From IMG/VR virus record IMGVR_UViG_3300020421_002088, positions 1 to 32,924 of that record: a stretch of 32,924 nucleotides of DNA. One strand, written 5' to 3'. The notes below the pieces were generated by a model. That model was not told the DNA's origin, did not search any database, and saw nothing but the letters and a program-made list of their open reading frames with translations. Of this stretch, positions 4,128 through 19,334 are shown piece after piece. The stretch is from a virus. How positions within the stretch are numbered: position 1 is the stretch's first letter; each line of letters opens with the position of its first letter. The translations under genes and the position numbers were made by a program.

Positions 4128-4782
4128 TTGTTGAGGGTTGGTATACGAGCTTATCGATCCGCATTATATTGTCATTTAAGAACAATCTAACGATAGTAAG
4201 TATGCCATCATTCTTAACATATATGTATTTGCCCTTTAAATTACGTTCCTGTTTTAGGTCACGTATTAGTCTGTCTCCAGCTCTAATCTTGTCCTTATTT
4301 TTTATACAGTAATCAGCAAAGTTAGGATCAGCAGTACCATTTAGATATGCTTTAAATTCATACTCAATTGGTTTGTTTACAACAATAGTATTCTTTTCTA
4401 AGTTAGGCATACTAGGTTCCCATAACCAAGGAACATCTTTTAGTTTCTTAGCTATTACCTTTAACCATTGTACGTTGTTGGAGTATATGCCTAGACGTGA
4501 TCCTTCACATCTTAACATAAAGTCTTCTTTATCTTGGAAGTGACTTATTAAAACTTTAAGATCAAAGAAATCATCTTCAGTAATATCAGTTTCTCTTTGC
4601 GAGTATCTGTGAAACTTTAATCTTAATGGCTGTCCTTGTCCACTCTTAAGTTCTAATCCGTCAATGATATCTCTAGCATTCTCTAGTCTTTTGTTTCTAA
4701 AGATATGTGTAGCGGAATTGTATACGCCTAACTTGTAGGCGTACTTGTCCCAAAACAGTTTGTTACTAGTTCTTTTGATCAA
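4123..4782 (-). CDS. Unknown protein translationally coupled to the ClpA-like gene
   Basis: The 219-residue protein starts at TTG 4780-4782, with AAGGAG 10 nt upstream inside the end of the Clp gene; the two genes overlap by 17 nt. It is basic and Trp/aromatic-rich, with no membrane segment, Cys cluster or recognisable motif. Recognisable stretches are NKLFWDKYAYKLGVYNSATH near the start, VPWLWEPSMPNLE mid-protein and GKYIYVKNDGILTIVRLF near the end. Because it is coupled to an unfoldase, an adaptor or a substrate-recognition role is one possibility, but I see no direct evidence. No family recognised. Confidence 0.75.
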   Translation of the reverse strand: MIKRTSNKLFWDKYAYKLGVYNSATHIFRNKRLENARDIIDGLELKSGQGQPLRLKFHRYSQRETDITEDDFFDLKVLISHFQDKEDFMLRCEGSRLGIYSNNVQWLKVIAKKLKDVPWLWEPSMPNLEKNTIVVNKPIEYEFKAYLNGTADPNFADYCIKNKDKIRAGDRLIRDLKQERNLKGKYIYVKNDGILTIVRLFLNDNIMRIDKLVYQPSTR

Positions 4783-7024
4783 CGGTTTCTTGCTCCTTGA
4801 TTTTATCGATATTTAATACAAATTTATCGTCTTTAATATCGATATTTAATGTACCACCATCTTTTAAATCACCAAACAAGAGTTTCTTAGATAAAGGAGT
4901 CTTAATGTCCTTGTCAATTACACGTTGTAAAGGTCTTGCACCCATCTTAGCATCAAAGCCTTTATCAACTAACAAGTCTATTGCATCGTCACTTACAGTT
5001 GTTGTAACACCTTTTTCAGTTAGCATAGTTTTTAGTTCTACTAGGAACTTGCCAACAATTTTTATCATTGTATTCTTTTCAAGTTTATTAAATGTCATTG
5101 TTCCATCAAGTCTATTTCTAAACTCTGGTGCAAAGAATTTTTTCAACTCTGTATCTTCGTATTCTTTTACAACATCACCAAAGCCAATAGCATTACTTTC
5201 AGCTTCTTGTGAACCTAAGTTAGTAGTTAGGATTAATACAATGTTTCTACAGTCAGCAGTTTTGCCATTTGAACCTGTAACAAAACCATTGTCCATAATT
5301 TGTAGTAGTAAAGAACTTACATCAGGATGTGATTTCTCAATTTCATCTAACAATAATACACAGTTAGGATTTTCTTGAATCTTTGTAATTAACAATCCTG
5401 CATTTTCTTCAAAGCCTACATAACCTGGAGGTGAACCTATTAGTTTGGCAACACTATGTTTCTCTTGATACTCTGACATATCAAATCTAACTAGCTTAAC
5501 TCCTAGCTGACTAGCAAGTTGTTTTGCTGTTTCAGTTTTACCAACACCAGTTGGACCCATGAATACAAATGATCCAATTGGTTTGTTTTCTGGTTTAAGT
5601 CCTGCTTGAGCAACAAGTATCTTGTCAACAATCTCATCAATTGCTTTGTCTTGTCCATAAATCTCACCTTTAAGATTCTTTTCAAGTTTAGCTAGATTGT
5701 TAGTTTCTTTTTCTTTAACTTGCTCTTCAGGTAAGTTTACTGCTTTTGCGAGTTCAAACTGAACTTCTTCTTCTCCAATTACTTTTTCAGCTTTTGGATC
5801 TTTTAAATTAAATCTACTACAAGCACAGTCAATCAAATCAATTGCTTTATCTGGCAGTTTCTTATCTGCTTGATACTTAACACTTAATTTAATAGCACTA
5901 TCAATAGCTTGTTCTGTGATAGTTGTACTATGAAACTCCTCATAATACTTTTTAATACCTTCTAAGATATCTTTAGTTACTTCTTTACTTGGCTCGTCAA
6001 CAGTTACTCTAGCAAACCTACGCATTAATGCACGGTCTTTCTCAAAGTACTTTCTATATTCTTCCCAAGTTGTACTTGCTACTACTTTAATATTGCCTTT
6101 AGTTAGTACGGGCTTTAACATATTAGCTAAATCGTTGGAACTTTGTCCGCCACCTGCACCAGCACCATTCATCATATGTGCTTCATCAATGAATACAATA
6201 GTTTTACCACGTTTCTTTAGTGCTGACATAACAAGTTTAAAACGTTCTTCAAAGTCACCTCTGTATTTAGAACCTGCTAACATACTTCCTATGTCTAAGT
6301 TGTAAACACTATACTCTAATAAAAACTCTGGAACTGTCTTGTTGACGATGTTCCAGGCAAGGCCTTCAGCAATAGCTGTTTTACCTACACCTGGATCACC
6401 CACTAGCAAAACGTTATTCTTTGCACGTCTACCTAAAGCGAGTGCAATAGAATCTAATTCGTCTATACGTCCTATAACAGGATCAATTTTACCTTTGTCT
6501 ACTTCTGAATTAAGATTACTTGTAAATGAACGTAAAGCTCTAGTAGCCATACCCTGCATTTCTTCATCTTCATAGCTGTCTGCTACTTCATTGCTCAAGT
6601 AGTCTGCAAACTTATCTTTATCAATGTTGCATTTACTGATATGATAGTATGACCAGCTTTTCTTTTCATTCATGATGCTTAAAAATACATCTGAACAATC
6701 AATATGATTACGTCCACTAAACAATACTTGCGTAAATGCTCTGTTTAACACTCTTTCAACTGCGTGTGTTTTCTTAGGCTTATACTTTTTAGCCTGTGCT
6801 TTGTCTAGTTGAATTGTTTCTGTTTGTGTTTTTAAATAATTCTCTACGTTCTTTTTAAGGAACTCTGGATCTGCACCATAGCCTTCTATAATTTTAGCAA
6901 AACTATCTTCGCATAACATCGCAAATAGTAAATGTTCAATAGTTACATACTCGTGATGTAATTTCTTTGAAACATCTACTGCTTTATCAAAAACTAACTG
7001 TAACTGTTCACTCGGTTCAACCAT
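4766..7024 (-). CDS. clpA: ClpA-like AAA+ unfoldase with ClpP-docking loop
   Basis: At 752 residues it is the length of ClpA and contains an N-domain (about 1-150) and two AAA+ modules. D1 has Walker A GDPGVGKT (209-216) and Walker B TIVFIDEAH (275-283). D2 has GPTGVGKT (490-497), CVLLLDEIEKSH (555-566) and the arginine-finger region FRNRLD (635-640). There is no ClpB middle domain. Residues 613-615 are IGF, the position and type of the IGL/IGF loop by which ClpA/ClpX dock on ClpP. No ClpP is encoded here, so the protein probably works with host ClpP. It overlaps def upstream by 8 nt and the TTG-start gene downstream by 17 nt, in a DnaJ-deformylase-Clp run. Family call certain; partner inferred. 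Confidence 0.95.
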   Translation of the reverse strand: MVEPSEQLQLVFDKAVDVSKKLHHEYVTIEHLLFAMLCEDSFAKIIEGYGADPEFLKKNVENYLKTQTETIQLDKAQAKKYKPKKTHAVERVLNRAFTQVLFSGRNHIDCSDVFLSIMNEKKSWSYYHISKCNIDKDKFADYLSNEVADSYEDEEMQGMATRALRSFTSNLNSEVDKGKIDPVIGRIDELDSIALALGRRAKNNVLLVGDPGVGKTAIAEGLAWNIVNKTVPEFLLEYSVYNLDIGSMLAGSKYRGDFEERFKLVMSALKKRGKTIVFIDEAHMMNGAGAGGGQSSNDLANMLKPVLTKGNIKVVASTTWEEYRKYFEKDRALMRRFARVTVDEPSKEVTKDILEGIKKYYEEFHSTTITEQAIDSAIKLSVKYQADKKLPDKAIDLIDCACSRFNLKDPKAEKVIGEEEVQFELAKAVNLPEEQVKEKETNNLAKLEKNLKGEIYGQDKAIDEIVDKILVAQAGLKPENKPIGSFVFMGPTGVGKTETAKQLASQLGVKLVRFDMSEYQEKHSVAKLIGSPPGYVGFEENAGLLITKIQENPNCVLLLDEIEKSHPDVSSLLLQIMDNGFVTGSNGKTADCRNIVLILTTNLGSQEAESNAIGFGDVVKEYEDTELKKFFAPEFRNRLDGTMTFNKLEKNTMIKIVGKFLVELKTMLTEKGVTTTVSDDAIDLLVDKGFDAKMGARPLQRVIDKDIKTPLSKKLLFGDLKDGGTLNIDIKDDKFVLNIDKIKEQETVDQKN

Positions 7025-7556
7025 ATAATTTAGTATCCTTAACTTGTCTTGATATTCGTTTCATTAATTTGTTCTGCTTCTTCTTAGCCATATCTAATCT
7101 CAATTTACTTACTCTATCTATGTAGTTGATTCCGTATAGATGATCATATTCATGACCAAAGATTCTCGCATTCCAACCTGTTAACTCTATTGTACACTCT
7201 TTTCCGCTAGAGTCAAGACACTCTGTTACCAATCCAAGTGGTCTTTTAACTTTAACGTATAGTAATGGAAAACTTAAACAGCCTTCCTCACCTTCAATCA
7301 TCTCTTCTGACACTTGCGTAATTTTAGGATTGATAATTGCAAAAGGTTTGTCATCTTCATAACCTTCCAAGCCGTTTGGTTTGATAATAAAAATTTGTGC
7401 ATTAAGTTCAACTTGGTTTGCCGCAAGTCCAACTCCTTGATTCTTATCCATGATCTCAATCATTTGTTCTTCGATCTCTTTAGCATTGAGCTTATCGAAA
7501 TCAAATGGATCTACTTTTCTTTCTAACCAACTATTTGGGTGATATATCAATTTCAT
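7017..7556 (-). CDS. def: Peptide deformylase
   Basis: All three deformylase motifs are present in the 179-residue protein: GVGLAANQ (41-48), EGCLSFP (91-97, metal ligand Cys93) and HEYDH (135-139, two His ligands plus catalytic Glu136). It removes the formyl group from N-terminal methionine of nascent proteins in the cytoplasm. Marine T4-like phages are known to carry deformylases; some are shorter at the C-terminus, whereas this one keeps a basic C-terminal helix (MAKKKQNKLMKRISRQ). The start lies inside the end of dnaJ (26-nt overlap), and its end overlaps the Clp gene, so the three are probably co-translated. Active-site residues are intact. Confidence 0.96.
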   Translation of the reverse strand: MKLIYHPNSWLERKVDPFDFDKLNAKEIEEQMIEIMDKNQGVGLAANQVELNAQIFIIKPNGLEGYEDDKPFAIINPKITQVSEEMIEGEEGCLSFPLLYVKVKRPLGLVTECLDSSGKECTIELTGWNARIFGHEYDHLYGINYIDRVSKLRLDMAKKKQNKLMKRISRQVKDTKLYG

Positions 7557-8406
7557 CTTTTATCTTTGCCAGTCTTTCTCTAATTTGTTCATTTGTAATG
7601 TTTGGTGTTATACCAATAACCTTCATAAACAAGTTACCTGTTCTACCACTTCTTTGGTCTGGTAAGCCTTGTCCACTTATACTAAAAGTTGTACCTGAAT
7701 TGGAGCCTGGAGGAACACTAACACTTATTTCTTTACCGTGTAATGTTTTAACTCTGATGTTTGTGCCTAGTAATAGATCGAATACACTAACGTTTCTCTC
7801 TATATATAAATTTATGCCGTCTACCTCATAGTCAGGATGTCTTCTGACTCTTACTTTTACAAACAAATTACCTCTTGGCATATTTGGAACTTGGTCTCCG
7901 CCCATTCCTGAGTAACGTATAGTATCTCCTGGACGTACACCTTTTGGTAATGTAATATTAACTGTTTGTTCCTTGCCACTTGGCAGTCTATATGTTGCTA
8001 TTACTTCTTTACCATGTATAATATCTTCTAATGTAATGTCTGCGGCGATAGTTATATCTTGATTACGCATTTGTCTGCGTCCTTGAAATGGATTAGCTTG
8101 TCCAAATCCTTCGCCAAAGAATGTGCTAAACACTTCTTCAAAACCATTACCGCCCATGTTAAAATGGAACTGTTGACCTTGGTGTGTTCTGTGCATTTTT
8201 TGTGGATCAGTAGTACCAAACTGATCATACATCTGTTTCTTTTCAGGATCAGATAGTGTTTGGTATGCTTCGTTTATTTCTTTGAATTTGGTATCGTCAC
8301 CACCCGTGCGATCAGGGTGATGTTGCATACTTTGTTTTTTGTATGCACTCTTTATTTCTTTACTAGAGGCGTTTCGTGAGACACCTAGGCTGTTGTAATA
8401 GTCCAT
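7531..8406 (-). CDS. DnaJ/CbpA-like J-domain co-chaperone
   Basis: The 291-residue protein has an N-terminal J domain with HPD at residues 30-32, a short Gly/Phe-rich linker (NMGGNGFEEVFSTFFGEGFG) and two C-terminal beta domains (about 118-285; GVRPGDTIRYSGMGGDQ, RHPDYEVDG). The Cys-rich zinc region of DnaJ is absent, so it is a class B (CbpA-type) J protein. It should stimulate host DnaK ATPase and deliver substrates. Start ATG is 5 nt downstream of a GATAAGTA octamer and has no Shine-Dalgarno sequence. It heads the deformylase-Clp run. Confidence 0.94.
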   Translation of the reverse strand: MDYYNSLGVSRNASSKEIKSAYKKQSMQHHPDRTGGDDTKFKEINEAYQTLSDPEKKQMYDQFGTTDPQKMHRTHQGQQFHFNMGGNGFEEVFSTFFGEGFGQANPFQGRRQMRNQDITIAADITLEDIIHGKEVIATYRLPSGKEQTVNITLPKGVRPGDTIRYSGMGGDQVPNMPRGNLFVKVRVRRHPDYEVDGINLYIERNVSVFDLLLGTNIRVKTLHGKEISVSVPPGSNSGTTFSISGQGLPDQRSGRTGNLFMKVIGITPNITNEQIRERLAKIKDEIDISPK

Positions 8407-8426: not shown

Positions 8427-8762
8427 TTACTTGTCAGACTTCTTGCTGGTTCCAGTGTATAAACCAAACCATGCCGCACCTGCACCAACTACAATACTAA
8501 TCAAACCTGATTGTTCCATAGTAGGTTGCGGTAAGTTCATATACCAAATTACACACTTGTATAAAAGTACAATGTAAACAGTTAAGAATAATCTTGGAAA
8601 AATTCTCCAAGCATCAACGGCTCTTGCCATATGAATTAACTTTGCATACGGGTTAGGACCTAGGTCCTTAACAGAGGTGTCTACTTCCAACTCTACATTT
8701 ACTTTTTTCTTGACATCTGCCACAGGCTTTGCCCCCTTATCTAATTTATCTTTTTCGTCCAT
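8427..8762 (-). CDS. Two-helix membrane protein, holin candidate
   Basis: The 111-residue protein has a charged Lys/Asp-rich N-terminal half, then two hydrophobic segments: about residues 57-77 (FLTVYIVLLYKCVIWYM) and 86-103 (GLISIVVGAGAAWFGLY), ending GTSKKSDK. Size, two transmembrane helices, charged ends and position near lysozyme and spanins fit a class II/III holin that would release the signal-less lysozyme encoded at 10648. I see no family motif that proves it. It overlaps the upstream MscS-like gene by 17 nt and has no obvious Shine-Dalgarno sequence. Confidence 0.72.
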   Translation of the reverse strand: MDEKDKLDKGAKPVADVKKKVNVELEVDTSVKDLGPNPYAKLIHMARAVDAWRIFPRLFLTVYIVLLYKCVIWYMNLPQPTMEQSGLISIVVGAGAAWFGLYTGTSKKSDK

Positions 8763-9499: not shown

Positions 9500-9895
9500 T
9501 TACTTGTCTTTGGAGTTGGGTTTGTTCTTAGTACCTTCGTAGTACTCTTTGTAAGACTTGATTATTTCGTCTTGTTGTAGCATATAAGCACGTATTTGTG
9601 CGAAGTTTTTAGCTAATGCTTCGTAGCCATCATCTGTTAAGCCAAATAATACAGGATCAATGCCACCTGCTTTAAGTTTTTCAAACACTTCGTCAGCATT
9701 ATCAGACGTAATAATAGTCCATTTAAGTTCTTCTAATTTAGGTGTTAACGGTGCAGGTAATTCAAGAGGTTGTCTATCTTCTTTTACTGAGAAGATTTCT
9801 AATTGTTTTACTGCTGTACCGCAACTAGTAAGGAACGTAGTTAGGGTTAGCAATACTAGGACACTCAGAATTGATTTCAGACTTCTTAGTTGCAT
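9500..9895 (-). CDS. Outer-membrane lipoprotein, o-spanin candidate
   Basis: The 131-residue protein starts with a basic n-region and hydrophobic stretch followed by a lipobox, FLTSC-G, with the lipidated Cys at 25. Ser-free Gly-Thr after the Cys is compatible with outer-membrane sorting. The mature part includes a Pro-containing stretch (PLELPAPLTPKLEEL) typical of Rz1-like proteins and a helical C-terminus. The gene starts inside the 3' end of the i-spanin candidate in another frame (71-nt overlap), the usual Rz/Rz1 layout. Together they would fuse inner and outer membranes at the last step of lysis. GGAGAAAGAG precedes the ATG. Confidence 0.83.
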   Translation of the reverse strand: MQLRSLKSILSVLVLLTLTTFLTSCGTAVKQLEIFSVKEDRQPLELPAPLTPKLEELKWTIITSDNADEVFEKLKAGGIDPVLFGLTDDGYEALAKNFAQIRAYMLQQDEIIKSYKEYYEGTKNKPNSKDK

Positions 9896-10310
9896 TTTTC
9901 TCTTTCTCCGTTAATGGACTGCCCATAGCAATTTCGCTACATCTCATTGCATTGGTACTTCCTTTATTAATTATCTTCTCTACGGACTCAGGCCTCTTCG
10001 TTGCGAGATCACCAATATCACGTACTTCGCCTTTTCCGTTTATTTTATTAAACTTTTTATCCAAAGCCTTAAACTCTGCTAAAAGAACTTTGTTTTGTTT
10101 TTCTATTTCTGCTTTAATTTTAGTCATTGCTTCAAAGTCTGCTTTCATCTGTGTAATAACAGCCTTTTGACTTTCAACACTTTGTTCTAACTTTAGATTG
10201 TTAGCTTCTGATGTAGCCAAGTCTGCTTTTAGATTCTTTACATACATAAATCCTCCGCCAGCACCTGCTAACACTACTAACATTAATGCAATTTTTATAG
10301 AACTAAACAC
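9825..10310 (-). CDS. Inner-membrane i-spanin candidate
   Basis: A GTG start (10308-10310) follows GGAGAGCAAGA. The 161-residue protein has an N-terminal membrane anchor (about 5-24, IKIALMLVVLAGAGGGFMYV) and then a long periplasmic coiled coil (about 27-95, ADLATSEANNLKLEQSVESQ onward). It ends in a less structured tail with two Cys (MRCSEI, NSECPS). This architecture and the overlapping lipoprotein gene are those of Rz-type spanins. It overlaps the ACP-like gene upstream by 8 nt. Lysozyme lies two genes further upstream, completing a lysis group. Confidence 0.84.
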   Translation of the reverse strand: MFSSIKIALMLVVLAGAGGGFMYVKNLKADLATSEANNLKLEQSVESQKAVITQMKADFEAMTKIKAEIEKQNKVLLAEFKALDKKFNKINGKGEVRDIGDLATKRPESVEKIINKGSTNAMRCSEIAMGSPLTEKEKNATKKSEINSECPSIANPNYVPY

Positions 10311-10527
10311 TCTTGCTCTCCACTAATTTAATAAAGTCGCCAACTGTCTTTACGTTAGCTTCTTCTTCACTTGAAATGCTTGTACCTGTTGCTTCTTGTA
10401 TCGCAATGGTAAGTTCAACGATATCAAAGTCGTCAGCACCTAAGTCATCTATCAAAGATGCACTTGGTACGACCTTAGACGCATCAACGTCTAAATGTTC
10501 TGCTATTGCTTTAACTACTTTTTCCAT
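10303..10527 (-). CDS. Acyl-carrier-protein-like protein lacking the phosphopantetheine serine
   Basis: The 74-residue protein matches bacterial ACP along its length: acidic, four-helix pattern, SASLIDDLGADDFDIVELTI around the normal attachment site, and the closing VKTVGDFIKLVE. In ACP the core motif is GADSLDxVEL with the prosthetic group on Ser. Here the codon for residue 33 (10429-10431) reads GAC, so the serine is Asp and the next Leu is Phe. It therefore cannot be phosphopantetheinylated at this site and is unlikely to carry acyl chains. It sits between lysozyme and spanin genes, overlapping both neighbours. GAGGAAGAAG precedes the ATG. A decoy or regulatory partner of host ACP-binding enzymes is possible (inference). 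Confidence 0.85.
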   Translation of the reverse strand: MEKVVKAIAEHLDVDASKVVPSASLIDDLGADDFDIVELTIAIQEATGTSISSEEEANVKTVGDFIKLVESKSV

Positions 10528-10651
10528 CTTCTTCCTCGTAACGTGGATGGTCGCAAACCACTACTTCTATTGGTTTGTTATCACCGTCTTTAAACTCTTC
10601 GATTAATCTGCCTTCGTGTGCTCTACCACAGTTTTGGCAGTATTTAATCAT
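10511..10651 (-). CDS. 46-residue Cys-containing protein, possible zinc-binding
   Basis: An ATG at 10649-10651 overlaps the lysozyme stop (ATGA), and the frame ends at TAA 10511-10513 inside the start of the ACP-like gene. The product begins MIKYCQNCGRAHEGRLIEEF and ends with an acidic stretch. Cys5 and Cys8 form a CxxC knuckle; Cys33 and His35 (VCDHP) could complete a metal site. The tight overlaps with both neighbours and the ordered Cys/His support a real gene. It may be a small zinc ribbon; function unknown. Confidence 0.68.
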   Translation of the reverse strand: MIKYCQNCGRAHEGRLIEEFKDGDNKPIEVVVCDHPRYEEEDGKSS

Positions 10652-11157
10652 ACTAACTTTTTGGCTAACTCTGTAGTTTCGTCGACTCTTCTAGTCCAAC
10701 CTCTTCCGAACGTATCGAAAGTACTCAAAGACTCATAATACTTTTGTCTTTCAGCTTGAAAATTTTCAATAGTTGACTCTATGCCGTGTGCTTCAACATA
10801 CTCAGCCACCTTCGCTAATGTATTAGGACCAATGCCTCCGTCAGCAACTGTACCAATCATTGTTTGTAAGTATTTTGCTGAACGTCCTGGGCCTGCGTTA
10901 ACACCAAAGTCGAATACACATAAGTCTAAACCACCTGGTAAATCGTCGCCCTTCATTTTGTCCCAATATCCTTTTTTATAAATCGGTGCAACATCTTCAA
11001 CTGTTAAGTCTTTCATGTCTTTAGTTCCACCGTGTTCTTCATAAACTCTTTTTGTAACACCTAAGTTTGTTTCTCCGCCTGGATCTTTAGGGTGATTTAC
11101 ATATCCACCTTCGTGGTGCAGAATAGTCTCCAAGCACTTGTCGTAATTTGATTGCAT
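10648..11157 (-). CDS. GH108-type endolysin (lysozyme)
   Basis: The 169-residue protein has the glycoside hydrolase 108 signature HHEGGYVNHPKDPGGETNLG, with catalytic Glu16. Its C-terminal part contains the peptidoglycan-binding-like stretch FQAERQKYYES followed by FGRGWTRRV, as in the PG_binding_3 domain usually fused to GH108. It hydrolyses peptidoglycan glycan strands. There is no signal peptide or signal-anchor, so it needs a holin; the two-helix protein at 8427-8762 is the candidate. AAGGAAT precedes the ATG. Full length for the family. Confidence 0.93.
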   Translation of the reverse strand: MQSNYDKCLETILHHEGGYVNHPKDPGGETNLGVTKRVYEEHGGTKDMKDLTVEDVAPIYKKGYWDKMKGDDLPGGLDLCVFDFGVNAGPGRSAKYLQTMIGTVADGGIGPNTLAKVAEYVEAHGIESTIENFQAERQKYYESLSTFDTFGRGWTRRVDETTELAKKLV

Positions 11158-12560: not shown

Positions 12561-13274
12561 ATGGGTGCAAAACGTGCCAAAAGGCGTTACGAACAGCAAC
12601 GTTCGAATATTATTAACTTCAATACACATCAATCAAAACAAGTACAAATACTACCCAGAAATAAAAATCAAGAAACATATATGCTAAAACTGTTAGACCC
12701 GAGAAAAGACATAGTCTTTGGTATTGGTCCAGCGGGAACCGGTAAGACCCTACTTGCGGTCCAGGTGGCTATTAAGAATTTTAAGGACGGGTTGGTTGAT
12801 AAAATTGTTATTACTAGACCAGCTGTGTCTGTTGATGAAGACCTTGGGTTTTTACCAGGAACCATGGAAGATAAAATGGCTCCTTGGACAAGACCTATCT
12901 TTGATGTATTCAAAGAATACTACTCCCCAAGAGAAGTAGAAGGTATGATTCAAGAAGGCGTAGTAGAGATTGCTCCATTGTCATATATGCGAGGAAGAAC
13001 ATTTAAGAAAGCATTCATTGTAGCAGATGAAATGCAAAATGCAACTCCAAGCCAAATGAAAATGCTGTTAACTAGGATAGGTGAGAAATCATATATGGTA
13101 GTTACAGGAGATTTGCGTCAGGCAGACAGAGAATCAAACAACGGTCTTTTAGAATTTGTAAAAAAACTAGAGGGATATAGAGAAACTTCATGTATCGATA
13201 TTGTAAGATTTCAACATACTGATATTGAAAGACACAAAGCGGTTAGTGAAGTATTAGATATTTACGGGGATTAG
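12561..13274 (+). CDS. phoH: PhoH-like P-loop ATPase
   Basis: The 237-residue protein has Walker A GPAGTGKT (56-63) and Walker B AFIVADEMQN (151-160), the PhoH signature; VTGDLRQAD follows near residue 190. PhoH proteins are cytoplasmic ATPases, frequent in marine phages; the bacterial gene is linked to phosphate starvation and RNA metabolism, but the phage role is unproven. AAAGGAG stands 7 nt before the ATG. It is the only plus-strand gene in the window. It is convergent with the gene at 13271, the stop codons overlapping by 4 bp with no terminator. Confidence 0.95.
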   Translation: MGAKRAKRRYEQQRSNIINFNTHQSKQVQILPRNKNQETYMLKLLDPRKDIVFGIGPAGTGKTLLAVQVAIKNFKDGLVDKIVITRPAVSVDEDLGFLPGTMEDKMAPWTRPIFDVFKEYYSPREVEGMIQEGVVEIAPLSYMRGRTFKKAFIVADEMQNATPSQMKMLLTRIGEKSYMVVTGDLRQADRESNNGLLEFVKKLEGYRETSCIDIVRFQHTDIERHKAVSEVLDIYGD

Positions 13275-14035
13275 GCTTCGTCGCCAGGAAGATCTGTGTC
13301 GTGTGAATCAACAACATAGGTTTTCTTGGCGTGTTGCCACTTAGACCATCCGTTGAATGTAATCTTGTTGGTTTGAATTATAGCATTATGCCTATCAACG
13401 GCAGTTTTGCTTAATGCACTTGTACGTGCAGTTACTTTTTCACGTTTAATAGGTATCACTTGTACTAGTGGTTCACCTAATTTAATTCTTGTAACTTTCT
13501 TTTCCAGTAACATGATGTTAATAGGACTGATCAAAGCACCCAAGTCATGATCTATTACACCTGGTATAGCTTCATAGTTTCTACCTTCAAAGAAAAACAT
13601 AGGCAAATACAGTAAACTCCAATCCTTAGGTTGCCATATCTTCCAAGGACAATCTAATTTTACTGCTGACTTAACACCAAACTTCTGCATAACAGAACTT
13701 ACTTCATTGTGTACTTGATCTGCTGGGTGAAATGCACTATTGTATTCAGGATCAGAATATCTAGTTTCAACCATCTGCCCATCTTCGCTTGGGATAATTT
13801 CCATATCGCACCAAGCAGGAATAATAAAGCCTGTTTTCATATAGTCGCCTATACCCGGACAAGCCTTTATAGTTTGATCGCTGTCTATTTTGTGTTGTTT
13901 CTTATCAGTAAACGTAGGCATTTGTTTCCAAGGGCCTGGCATAAATTCTGAAGCAGGTTTAATGGGTGCATATTTACGTACAGCCCAATTCTCTGTTTCA
14001 AAATTTACTACTGCTTTTTGTTTTTTATTAAACAT
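13271..14035 (-). CDS. Conserved-looking phage protein, unknown function
   Basis: The 254-residue protein is rich in Trp and Pro (EFMPGPWKQMP, CPGIGDYMKTGFIIPAW, CPWKIWQPKDWS), with LPMFFFEGRNYEAIPGVIDH and KLGEPLVQVIPIKRE. The pattern suggests a beta-rich, possibly double-stranded beta-helix-like fold, and resembles uncharacterised proteins of marine T4-like phages. No catalytic motif is evident. It starts inside the thyX end (8-nt overlap) and its stop overlaps that of phoH from the other strand. Confidence 0.82.
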   Translation of the reverse strand: MFNKKQKAVVNFETENWAVRKYAPIKPASEFMPGPWKQMPTFTDKKQHKIDSDQTIKACPGIGDYMKTGFIIPAWCDMEIIPSEDGQMVETRYSDPEYNSAFHPADQVHNEVSSVMQKFGVKSAVKLDCPWKIWQPKDWSLLYLPMFFFEGRNYEAIPGVIDHDLGALISPINIMLLEKKVTRIKLGEPLVQVIPIKREKVTARTSALSKTAVDRHNAIIQTNKITFNGWSKWQHAKKTYVVDSHDTDLPGDEA

Positions 14036-14687
14036 CTATACTTTTCATTAATGGAAATATGTCTGCAATAACTTCGGCACAGGCATGAGCAATTTCCATG
14101 TGTTCTTTTTGTGTGCCATTAGCACCACGTAGCTCAATATAATGTACCCAACTTCTTAAAGTACCATTCATATATAATTTAGTCTTAGTCAAGCCTTCTG
14201 GTAGTACGACTCTGGCTTGTTCTTTGGCTATTCCATTTCTAATTGCCCAGTCGTATGCTTTTTTGGAAGTAGCAATTACTTCTTTTTGCATATTACCCCA
14301 TGCCATTTCTAATTTTTGATCATGTACTTCAATTGAGTTTTGTCTATTCTTTGTATCTTGCAGTCTTGGCTCTCTATATGTAAATGCTTCTTCCATATCT
14401 TGTGGGTTTGCATAACGTTGGCTAAACTCCTGAAAACTAAAACTTCTATGTCGTACTATTTGATGTGCAATATCTCTTGTTGTTTCTATTTCTAAACAAG
14501 CACTAACCATTTCTAATGGCGACCAGTGTTTGTGTTTTACTAGATACTTGATTAGTTTTTCACTAGTTTCCTTGTTCATCTGATTACTTGGATTGCTTAC
14601 TCTGGCACAGTAGGCAATTAGTTCTTGCAAGTCACTTAAATCTGTATTGTCAGGCGCCTTGCTATAAGAGATTATTTTTACTGACAT
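14028..14687 (-). CDS. thyX: Flavin-dependent thymidylate synthase
   Basis: The 219-residue protein carries the ThyX signature RHRSFSFQEFSQR (79-91), matching RHRxxSxxxxSxR, and further conserved stretches VLPEGLTKTKLYMNGTLRSW and a C-terminal helix. ThyX methylates dUMP to dTMP using methylenetetrahydrofolate and FAD/NADPH, supplying thymidylate for AT-rich phage DNA. It is full length. Start ATG has GGAT upstream. The neighbouring ferredoxin and parvulin genes are in the same run; whether the ferredoxin donates electrons is unknown. Confidence 0.95.
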   Translation of the reverse strand: MSVKIISYSKAPDNTDLSDLQELIAYCARVSNPSNQMNKETSEKLIKYLVKHKHWSPLEMVSACLEIETTRDIAHQIVRHRSFSFQEFSQRYANPQDMEEAFTYREPRLQDTKNRQNSIEVHDQKLEMAWGNMQKEVIATSKKAYDWAIRNGIAKEQARVVLPEGLTKTKLYMNGTLRSWVHYIELRGANGTQKEHMEIAHACAEVIADIFPLMKSIDV

Positions 14688-14690
14688 TTT

Positions 14691-15014
14691 TTATCCTGTT
14701 CTATATATAATGTGTACACCAAATGGTGTTACTATAGGGTGAGCCCCCATTTCGCCTTTAGGTATTGATTGACAGGCTGTTGAAAATTCTATTACCATGT
14801 CTTCTGGTAAAAACCAACCTAAATCTCCACCCGATCTCTTTCCACTTGGACAAGCACTATTTTCCTTTGCGGCGATCTCAAAAGAATACTTGCCATCTTG
14901 AATATCTTTTTGTACACGTTCAGCATCTTTCATAGCAAACGCAATACCTCTACTATGTGTGCTATTGGTTGCACCGGCATAAGAAAAAAGTATATGTGAT
15001 GCTCTCATTTTCAT
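14691..15014 (-). CDS. Parvulin-type peptidyl-prolyl isomerase (PpiC-like)
   Basis: The 107-residue protein is a single rotamase domain: MRASHILFSY at the N-terminus (first conserved His), AAKENSACPSGKRSGGDLGW in the middle, and TPFGVHIIYRTG at the end. It should catalyse proline isomerisation in the cytoplasm, as no signal peptide is present. The size matches E. coli PpiC (about 93 residues) with a small insertion near residues 14-22. AGGGAG lies before the ATG. It lies between fdxA and thyX and adds a third folding factor to the genome. Confidence 0.92.
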   Translation of the reverse strand: MKMRASHILFSYAGATNSTHSRGIAFAMKDAERVQKDIQDGKYSFEIAAKENSACPSGKRSGGDLGWFLPEDMVIEFSTACQSIPKGEMGAHPIVTPFGVHIIYRTG

Positions 15015-15016
15015 AG

Positions 15017-15340
15017 TTAATCTCCCTTACCTGGTTTATCCGACATCTCAATATTAACAGCCGGAATTCTATCAGCCAACACATCTTCATCTCGCTTCTG
15101 TGTTATTTGTGGCCATTCTACACTATATTTACTATTCCAGTTAAACCAAGTACCATCGTCTTGAGATTCTTCTATGATAGCATCTACTGGACATTCTGGA
15201 ACACATACTCCGCAGTCAATACATTCGTCTGGATTAATTACAAGCATATTTTCGCCTTCGTAAAAACAGTCAACCGGGCAAACTTCAACACAATCCATGT
15301 GTTTACAATTTACACATTTGTCATTTACTAGGTACGTCAT
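15017..15340 (-). CDS. fdxA: 7Fe ferredoxin, FdxA type
   Basis: The 107-residue protein matches bacterial FdxA in length and Cys pattern. Cys9, 17 and 50 (with Cys12 as the extra, non-ligand Cys) fit the [3Fe-4S] site, and Cys21/40/43/46 the [4Fe-4S] site, with the phrases [18 protein letters not shown] and [19 protein letters not shown] Cys at position 25 also follows the family. It carries electrons at low potential in the cytoplasm. Cyanophage ferredoxins are usually plant-type 2Fe-2S, so this type suggests acquisition from a proteobacterial host. Stop and neighbours are tightly packed; GGAT precedes the ATG. Confidence 0.95.
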
Positions 15341-18180: not shown

Positions 18181-18200
18181 TAAAGATTATTAAAAGTCAA
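18172..18200 (-). promoter_or_regulatory. Near-consensus sigma70 promoter
   Basis: On the minus strand TTGACT (18195-18200) is followed after exactly 17 bp by TATAAT (18172-18177). The -35 box contains the TGA stop of the oxygenase-like gene. The leader would be about 14 nt and contains TAGGAG. This is the only host-type promoter I could find in the window. Confidence 0.75.
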
Positions 18201-18748
18201 GCATATAATCCAGAAAAAAGGAAAGATATACTAAATCTTGGAGTAATCTTATTTGGCTTTAATTCTTTATGTACAGTTCGAGCGGGGAAGGCAATACATC
18301 TACCTTTTTTGAATTCTACTGTTTCGAAAATAGTTTTACCATCTCTATGATAAAATTCCATTCCACTATCACCTTGTAACATATAATAAACTACCCAATT
18401 GGACTTATCAGAATAAACCATCTTACCTGAAGCATCAGTATCGTATGGTTCGTCAAATGCAATTATATCAGGATAATGTTCTTGTGTTGACATAATTGTT
18501 TTGACATTTAATAAGGTTAACAATCCTGCTTTTCCAAACAAAGGAATCTTTGCTTTGATGTCGTGTCTTTTGAAATTAATTGCACACCAAAGGGCTTTTA
18601 TTTCCCAAGGTAAATCGTTTAGGTTTGGCCAATGTGAACTAAATCCTTTTTCACCGAATACTACTGGTTGGTGCGGTAAGGTAGCTTCGCATTGTTCTTG
18701 TAGCCATTCAGGAACAGCATCGTCCATTACTATAATATTATTTGACAA
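18197..18748 (-). CDS. Degenerate 2OG-Fe(II) oxygenase paralog
   Basis: TTG at 18746-18748 follows AAGGAG inside the end of its paralog; the longer upstream extension overlaps that gene and is rejected. The 183-residue protein aligns throughout with the 18738-19334 product (DDAVPEWLQEQCEATLP against DDVIPKWLHQKAVETVP; GDSGMEFYHRDGK against GDSGMNFYNNDSE; ISFLFSG against VGFIFSG). Where the paralog has LHVD, this protein has IAFD (Ala97, Asp99), so the first metal His is lost. The distal His160 and Arg171 remain. It is either inactive, uses another ligand, or acts as a partner subunit. Confidence 0.8.
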   Translation of the reverse strand: MSNNIIVMDDAVPEWLQEQCEATLPHQPVVFGEKGFSSHWPNLNDLPWEIKALWCAINFKRHDIKAKIPLFGKAGLLTLLNVKTIMSTQEHYPDIIAFDEPYDTDASGKMVYSDKSNWVVYYMLQGDSGMEFYHRDGKTIFETVEFKKGRCIAFPARTVHKELKPNKITPRFSISFLFSGLYA

Positions 18749-19334
18749 TTTCTTCTTGCTCCTTTTTAAATATAGGCATGATAACTCCTCTATCTCTAGC
18801 AAACTTAGATGACCTACCACTAAAAATAAATCCTACTGTTACTCTTGGACTTGCTTCTTTAGGCGGTTGTCCTTCATGTATCATTGCACTTGGAAATACT
18901 ATACATCTAGCATCTCCATAATCAACACTATGTTTTAGTTCGCTATCATTATTATAAAAGTTCATTCCACTATCGCCTATAACTGAATAAACCATAGTAT
19001 ATGCCTTTGTATCTCCTTGTGTGTCAACATGAAGACCACCTATATGGTCCTTAGTCGTCAAGTTAACTTGGATCTGGTTAAGCTGTATGTCACCAACATC
19101 GGGATCGATAAGGTGTTTTTGTTCTTCAAATGCCATCCATAGGGCTTGTAATACCCAAGGTGCATCATCTATTTCTTCGTGTTTCCAGGCATCACTAAAG
19201 AACTGATATCCTTGGTCAGGACCTAATCCTCTGTGTCCCCATTTAAGTGGAAGGTAGGGTACAGTTTCTACTGCTTTTTGATGTAGCCATTTTGGTATGA
19301 CATCATCTAATACTTTGATTGTTTCTACGTCCAT
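18738..19334 (-). CDS. 2OG-Fe(II) oxygenase
   Basis: The 198-residue protein shows an oxygenase core with IGGLHVDTQGD (His102-x-Asp104), distal His153 (SAMIHEGQPP) and Arg164 (SPRVTVGFIFSG) as 2-oxoglutarate anchor. A basic C-terminal tail (SSKFARDRGVIMPIFKKEQE) is absent from the neighbouring paralog. The ATG lacks a Shine-Dalgarno sequence; ATTAAATA stands 5 nt upstream. Substrate unknown. The next gene starts within its last codons (11-nt overlap), so the pair is translated together. Confidence 0.85.
   Translation of the reverse strand: MDVETIKVLDDVIPKWLHQKAVETVPYLPLKWGHRGLGPDQGYQFFSDAWKHEEIDDAPWVLQALWMAFEEQKHLIDPDVGDIQLNQIQVNLTTKDHIGGLHVDTQGDTKAYTMVYSVIGDSGMNFYNNDSELKHSVDYGDARCIVFPSAMIHEGQPPKEASPRVTVGFIFSGRSSKFARDRGVIMPIFKKEQEEIVK

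Follow-up and report, generated by a model that had tools for sequence, protein, structure and literature searches.

A phage protein with the predicted fold of an acyl carrier protein and aspartate in place of the phosphopantetheine serine

The attachment serine of acyl carrier proteins (ACPs) has been called strictly conserved, and a study of Plasmodium reports a serine-less ACP outside the Apicomplexa from one chromerid only (PMC8547962). In Plasmodium falciparum and other Apicomplexa the mitochondrial ACP (mACP) has lost this serine; Phe takes its place, or Cys or Gly in Toxoplasma, and the same study describes the Plasmodium protein as essential without phosphopantetheine and as working by protein docking (PMC8547962). 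Here we describe an ACP homolog that likewise lacks the serine and is encoded in the window, the whole 32,924-nucleotide stretch of viral DNA analysed (IMG/VR record IMGVR_UViG_3300020421_002088). It belongs to a clade of uncultured ocean phages in most of which the serine is replaced by D, E, P, V, I, A or N. Whereas Plasmodium mACP is a eukaryotic organelle protein with Isd11-Nfs1 as its partner, the clade ACP is the product of a phage gene. By analogy, the serine-less mACP of Plasmodium would be the closest precedent for the window protein.

Bacterial AcpP of type II fatty acid synthesis shares with the window protein the fold, the size, the acidity, the DDLGAD loop and the first part of helix II, but AcpP has the attachment serine, whereas the window protein lacks it and cannot bear acyl chains at that site. 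The ACPs of the Prochlorococcus phages P-HM1, P-HM2 and MED4-213 are also phage-encoded but keep the DSL motif, and all three genomes carry an ACP synthase gene, unlike the clade records searched; PMC3037559 reports the synthase in P-HM1 and P-HM2. The Eneladusvirus ACP of Erwinia and Serratia jumbo phages, which PMC7760394 places near a spanin-like gene and reports as detected by mass spectrometry in phage ghosts, keeps its serine (GLDSLD), unlike the window protein. Published phage ACPs are otherwise described as products of metabolic genes, for example acpP alongside fabF and fabG in prophages of Roseobacter (PMC8224337). Among the open-access papers that literature searches listed, none reported a serine-less phage ACP.

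The window ORF (10303..10527, minus strand, ATG at 10527) encodes 74 residues with a pI of 4.2. The sequence-only reading had described an ACP-like protein here with GAC at the serine position, and ORF and codon are as described. The ORF matches Pfam PF00550 (PP-binding) with 34 bits (3.7e-8), above the curated cut-off of 20.8 bits, and the PHROG family 'acyl carrier protein' with 1.5e-10; its sequence also matches solved ACPs, the best at 6e-15. An AlphaFold2 model based on an alignment of 27 sequences (mean pLDDT 90.8) has the four-helix ACP fold, with predicted helices at residues 2–12, 33–47, 53–57 and 62–72, and in a Foldseek search of the PDB with this model holo-, apo- and acyl-ACPs top the ranking with TM scores of ~0.9. 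On profile matches and model, this is a real ACP fold with Asp at the phosphopantetheine serine.

Asp33 (GAC, 10429..10431, minus strand) lies within codons 29–38, L-G-A-D-[D]-F-D-I-V-E (10414..10443, minus strand), and opens helix II in the model, the position of the phosphopantetheine serine in ACPs. A holo-forming ACP has Ser as the first residue of this helix; the window protein has Asp instead. As had been claimed, phosphopantetheine cannot attach to the protein at the usual site, and acyl carriage there is impossible. Relocation of the serine elsewhere in the protein was considered and rejected, since no Ser column is conserved across the clade (43 ORFs) and the most widespread ones, columns 17 and 52, vary or are absent from one group.

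Homologs were collected by several searches. The first used the peptide DDLGADDF and returned 31 contigs, in every one of which the site is D or E; this all-acidic result was not trusted because the pattern itself contained Asp, and the search was repeated with the site left open. A DNA pattern with NNN at the serine codon matched 45 times (43 non-Ser), with E in 20 cases, D in 12, P in 6, V in 3, and S and I in two each, and a free-residue search gave 62 loci, 59 of them in the clade. Searches that excluded the site found non-Ser residues in 48 of 50 clade loci with the N-terminal half (among 80 of 103 relatives) and in 34 of 38 with the C-terminal half. Serine is absent in 55 of the 59 IMG/VR contigs of the clade, where the site holds E in 20, D in 15, P in 11, S in 4, V in 3, and A, N and I in two each. 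These counts exclude L030, L031, L141 and L142 (GADDFT), L085 (GADSFD) and L143 (Ser, DSLH). The set of 43 ORFs used for alignment corresponds to 39 proteins; it lacks L232 and the fragment L039, which is cut by a contig end and is among the 59 contigs, and it includes L046, a cut copy of another.

With 55 of 59 contigs lacking Ser, a private mutation or sequencing error was rejected. Non-Ser is thus the rule in the clade, but Asp is not fixed, and a clade-wide fixation of Asp as a phosphate mimic was rejected because P, V, I, A, N and S occur. The suggestion that Asp mimics the charge of a modified serine fits only the window's own subgroup, group A, and a few other phages, not the clade as a whole: the site is acidic (D or E) throughout only in group A, whereas group C has D, E, V, N, I and P. 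Four contigs (L114, L126, L127 and L128) keep Ser in very similar proteins, so the loss is not absolute. The clade has support of 96/85 in a protein tree with 40 clade rows; this tree is poorly resolved, with 38 of 79 inner branches left open, and cannot separate retention of Ser from its regain.

Outside the clade Ser prevails, in 27 of 30 loci of the N-terminal-half search (among 80 of 103 relatives) and in 79 of the best 80 of 215 matches in a genome collection, the sole non-Ser among these best 80 being a phage-like contig binned with Pelagibacter. A further scan covered at least 120 stretches, eight of them already in the collection and the other 112 loci examined; among the matches listed, 102 are putative ACPs with Ser before Leu, three are clade members, two are serine-less ACPs (L327 with E, L349 with D) and five are frames read as non-ACP. 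L195 is a further serine-less ACP outside the clade, with D at the site, and L030 and L142 are serine-less with D, first found by the Asp-containing pattern. The acidic site of L195, L327 and L349, all outside the clade and from site-open searches, hints at repeated invention. The ACP of L142 adjoins a radical-SAM-like gene (PHROG), and that of L349 a gene with a CxxxCxxC motif read by eye.

Residue 33 is the most variable column of the clade alignment, with an entropy of 2.45 bits against 2.28 for the next (43 ORFs), whereas L29, A31, D32, F34, D35 and E38 never vary in these ORFs (L-x-A-D-[x]-F-D-x-x-E). The invariance of residues 27–34 follows in part from the search patterns (DDLGADDF, NNN-codon, free-residue and N-terminal-half), but the same six residues occur without exception in all 38 clade loci of the C-terminal-half search, whose pattern lay elsewhere in the protein. 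The invariant acidic residues around the site are the equivalents of E. coli D35, D38 and E41. The sequence-only reading had the acidic docking surface of helix II retained, which stands for these three residues but not for the far half of the helix, which is less acidic than in AcpP. Relative to E. coli AcpP, several positions beyond E41 differ, the distal acids E47–E49 are not kept, and the equivalents of M44 and F50 are I or V and T or L, respectively (43 ORFs).

Codon parsimony on the IQ-TREE tree places 16 nonsynonymous and two synonymous steps at codon 33, more nonsynonymous steps than at any other of the 72 codons, against 217 nonsynonymous and 315 synonymous steps at all other codons together (P = 3.4e-5 for the single site, 0.0025 after correction by a factor of 72). 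On the FastTree tree the counts are 15 and 3 (0.023 after the same correction). Codons 31, 32, 34, 35 and 38 have no nonsynonymous and one to five synonymous steps. The ratio of 16:2 is indistinguishable from an assumed neutral proportion of 0.75 (P = 0.14), so site 33 looks released and diversifying selection is unproven. Within group A the encoded residue at the site switches only between D and E (six steps on both trees); synonymous divergence is similar there and in group C, with a median pS of 0.38 and 0.33, respectively. The remainder of the protein is under purifying selection, with a median pN/pS of 0.27 in group A, 0.12 in group B and 0.30 in group C. Loss of the serine combined with purifying selection elsewhere, the mark of a docking ACP of the apicomplexan mACP type, is what was found in the clade.

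The window gene lies in a lysis block on the minus strand, which in group A has the order endolysin, 46-residue Cys-rich ORF, ACP, Rz, Rz1. The endolysin (10648..11157) matches glycosyl hydrolase 108 (GH108) by profile and PHROG. The Cys-rich ORF (10511..10651) lies directly upstream of the ACP gene and overlaps its start; it looks zinc-ribbon-like by eye, has no family match above the cut-off and was detected next to the ACP gene in 25 contigs of the 27 in group A; the remaining two break off 14 and 90 bases upstream of that gene. The Rz-like inner-membrane spanin (9825..10310; PHROG) has its best isolate match in Pelagibacter phage HTVC008M, and the Rz1-like outer-membrane spanin (9500..9895; PHROG) overlaps it. 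No GH108 endolysin was detected beside the ACP in L099, L110 and L112 despite available upstream sequence, and the ACP–spanin neighbourhood is kept there. Upstream of the ACP in L003, L005, L006 and L007, two GH108 endolysin-like matches lie side by side, with 37–39% and 71% identity to the window endolysin. A 111-residue membrane-like protein at 8427-8762 is possibly a holin; many group A contigs and some of group B have it close to the lysis block, and partially related sequences occur in 361 phage records, of which 348 are from Vibrio phages.

A spanin neighbours the ACP gene in 35 of the 59 clade contigs, namely all 27 of group A, with a spanin match within 1.2 kb, and eight of the 16 of group B. 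Seven group B contigs have no nearby spanin match (in L116 and L123 the contig ends shortly beyond the ACP on one side), and their neighbours are mostly of unknown function; in L118 an Rz1-like gene lies ~2 kb away. Three of the four Ser-bearing members of group B lie away from spanins, and L126 lies beside them. In all 16 group C contigs the ACP gene adjoins a tail-sheath/stabiliser-like gene, with a virion structural gene on its other side in 14, the remaining two being cut. A dedicated lysis partner was considered; it is weakened by the tail setting of group C and the seven group B contigs without spanin. The link to lysis, from which the earlier reading thought an effect on membrane lipid supply conceivable, is positional at best, as the ACP lies beside tail genes in 16 of 59 contigs. 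HTVC008M has the spanin region but no ACP (no PF00550 match), and the ACP gene is therefore accessory. Because Rz is closest to HTVC008M and contig L232 is binned with Pelagibacter, the host of the window phage is likely SAR11.

Elsewhere in the window, 4766-8406 and 12561-15340 hold cell-like genes, among them Clp ATPase, peptide deformylase, DnaJ, PhoH, ThyX, a PPIC-type prolyl isomerase and a 4Fe-4S ferredoxin. Two overlapping neighbour ORFs at 18197-19334 share similar stretches (DDAVPEWLQ and DDVIPKWLH), apparently a tandem duplication.

No phage ACP synthase was found in 22 related records, mostly fragments and each with one ACP (20 of the clade, three of them Ser-bearing, plus L142 and L143). 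The synthase is present in the three cyanophages with a Ser-ACP and absent in both Vibrio phages with one. Its absence says little, because the host enzyme would suffice for a Ser-ACP, and its use as a marker of Ser-bearing ACPs was dropped, as the three Ser-bearing clade contigs and the two Vibrio phages lack it.

Tentatively, we favour a phosphopantetheine-independent phage ACP that serves as a docking module and most likely competes at host ACP-binding proteins, a competition that we infer. The protein would be made late in infection and remain permanently 'apo'; it would use loop 1 and helix II to dock onto ACP-recognising proteins. Most probably it would compete with host holo- or acyl-ACP at enzymes that also bind apo-ACP, candidates being glycerol-phosphate acyltransferase, fatty-acid enzymes and the host ACP synthase, and the outcome would be slower host lipid synthesis. 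Invariant docking acids around a site that does not need phosphopantetheine transfer are as a docking role predicts. With the serine no longer needed, residue 33 would drift, mostly among residues suited to a helix start, and in group A an acidic residue may mimic the charge of the phosphate or hold a basic patch more tightly. Loss of the distal helix II acids (E47–E49) and of F50 may lower the affinity for standard fatty-acid enzymes.

One review, which cites Keating et al. 1995 and whose wording is not fully consistent, reports that apo-ACP inhibits glycerol-3-phosphate acyltransferase more strongly than holo-ACP and stops E. coli growth (PMC3896788). The stronger, dominant-negative form, in which the late and permanently apo protein would bind host ACP-recognising enzymes or ACP synthase and stop or redirect membrane lipid synthesis before or during lysis, is possible but rather unlikely. 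SpoT, named earlier as a partner, is reported in the same review not to bind apo-ACP (PMC3896788). IscS binding in E. coli needs ACP D35 and D38 and is reported to fail with ACP S36T (PMC13343975); given these reports SpoT and IscS are unlikely partners, unless the acidic residue replaces the arm. Changes at ACP L42, V43, M44, F50 and I54 impair the interaction with several partners (PMC3340395), and because the M44 and F50 equivalents differ in the clade, the protein may bind fewer partners than AcpP does.

It is also possible, though we would doubt it, that the protein binds one particular host or phage protein, as a stable subunit of it or as its activator, in the way shown for Plasmodium mACP with Isd11-Nfs1 (PMC8547962). 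The unvarying stretch around the site (43 ORFs; 38 loci) would suit such an adaptor, as would the spanin neighbour in 35 of 59 contigs, the tail-sheath-like neighbour in 16 of 16 of group C and the ACP in Eneladusvirus ghosts with its gene near a spanin-like gene (PMC7760394), though Ser is kept there. However, the neighbours vary by group among spanins, tail genes and others, and no single phage partner fits.

Inhibition of the host AcpS, in which an unmodifiable apo-ACP would occupy the enzyme and block activation of new host ACP, is improbable. Apo-ACP is the natural AcpS substrate, and the residues D35, D38 and E41, whose equivalents are invariant here (43 ORFs), lie in the ACP–AcpS interface of known structures; against this, several helix II positions beyond E41 differ from E. 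coli.

A virion component, with the ACP fold as a minor structural or injected protein, is very unlikely: the group C gene lies between a virion structural gene and the tail-sheath/stabiliser gene, and ACP was reported in Eneladusvirus ghosts (PMC7760394), but ghost preparations also contain other soluble proteins, and the gene sits in the lysis block throughout group A and in half of the group B contigs.

Least probable is that an auxiliary metabolic gene which once bore Ser now drifts as a functionless remnant, a scenario which the near-neutral 16:2 at residue 33 (P = 0.14 against 0.75) would allow but which is disfavoured by purifying selection on the remaining protein (217:315 steps; pN/pS 0.12–0.30), a frame that is open in the copies read (L039 is cut by a contig end) and the restriction of residue 33 to D or E in group A.

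With the docking reading preferred, the clade is a natural set of phosphopantetheine-independent ACPs, in which the most variable residue stands beside an unvarying stretch used for docking elsewhere. It makes testable which ACP functions need docking alone, and it could reveal a new form of phage control over host lipid metabolism.
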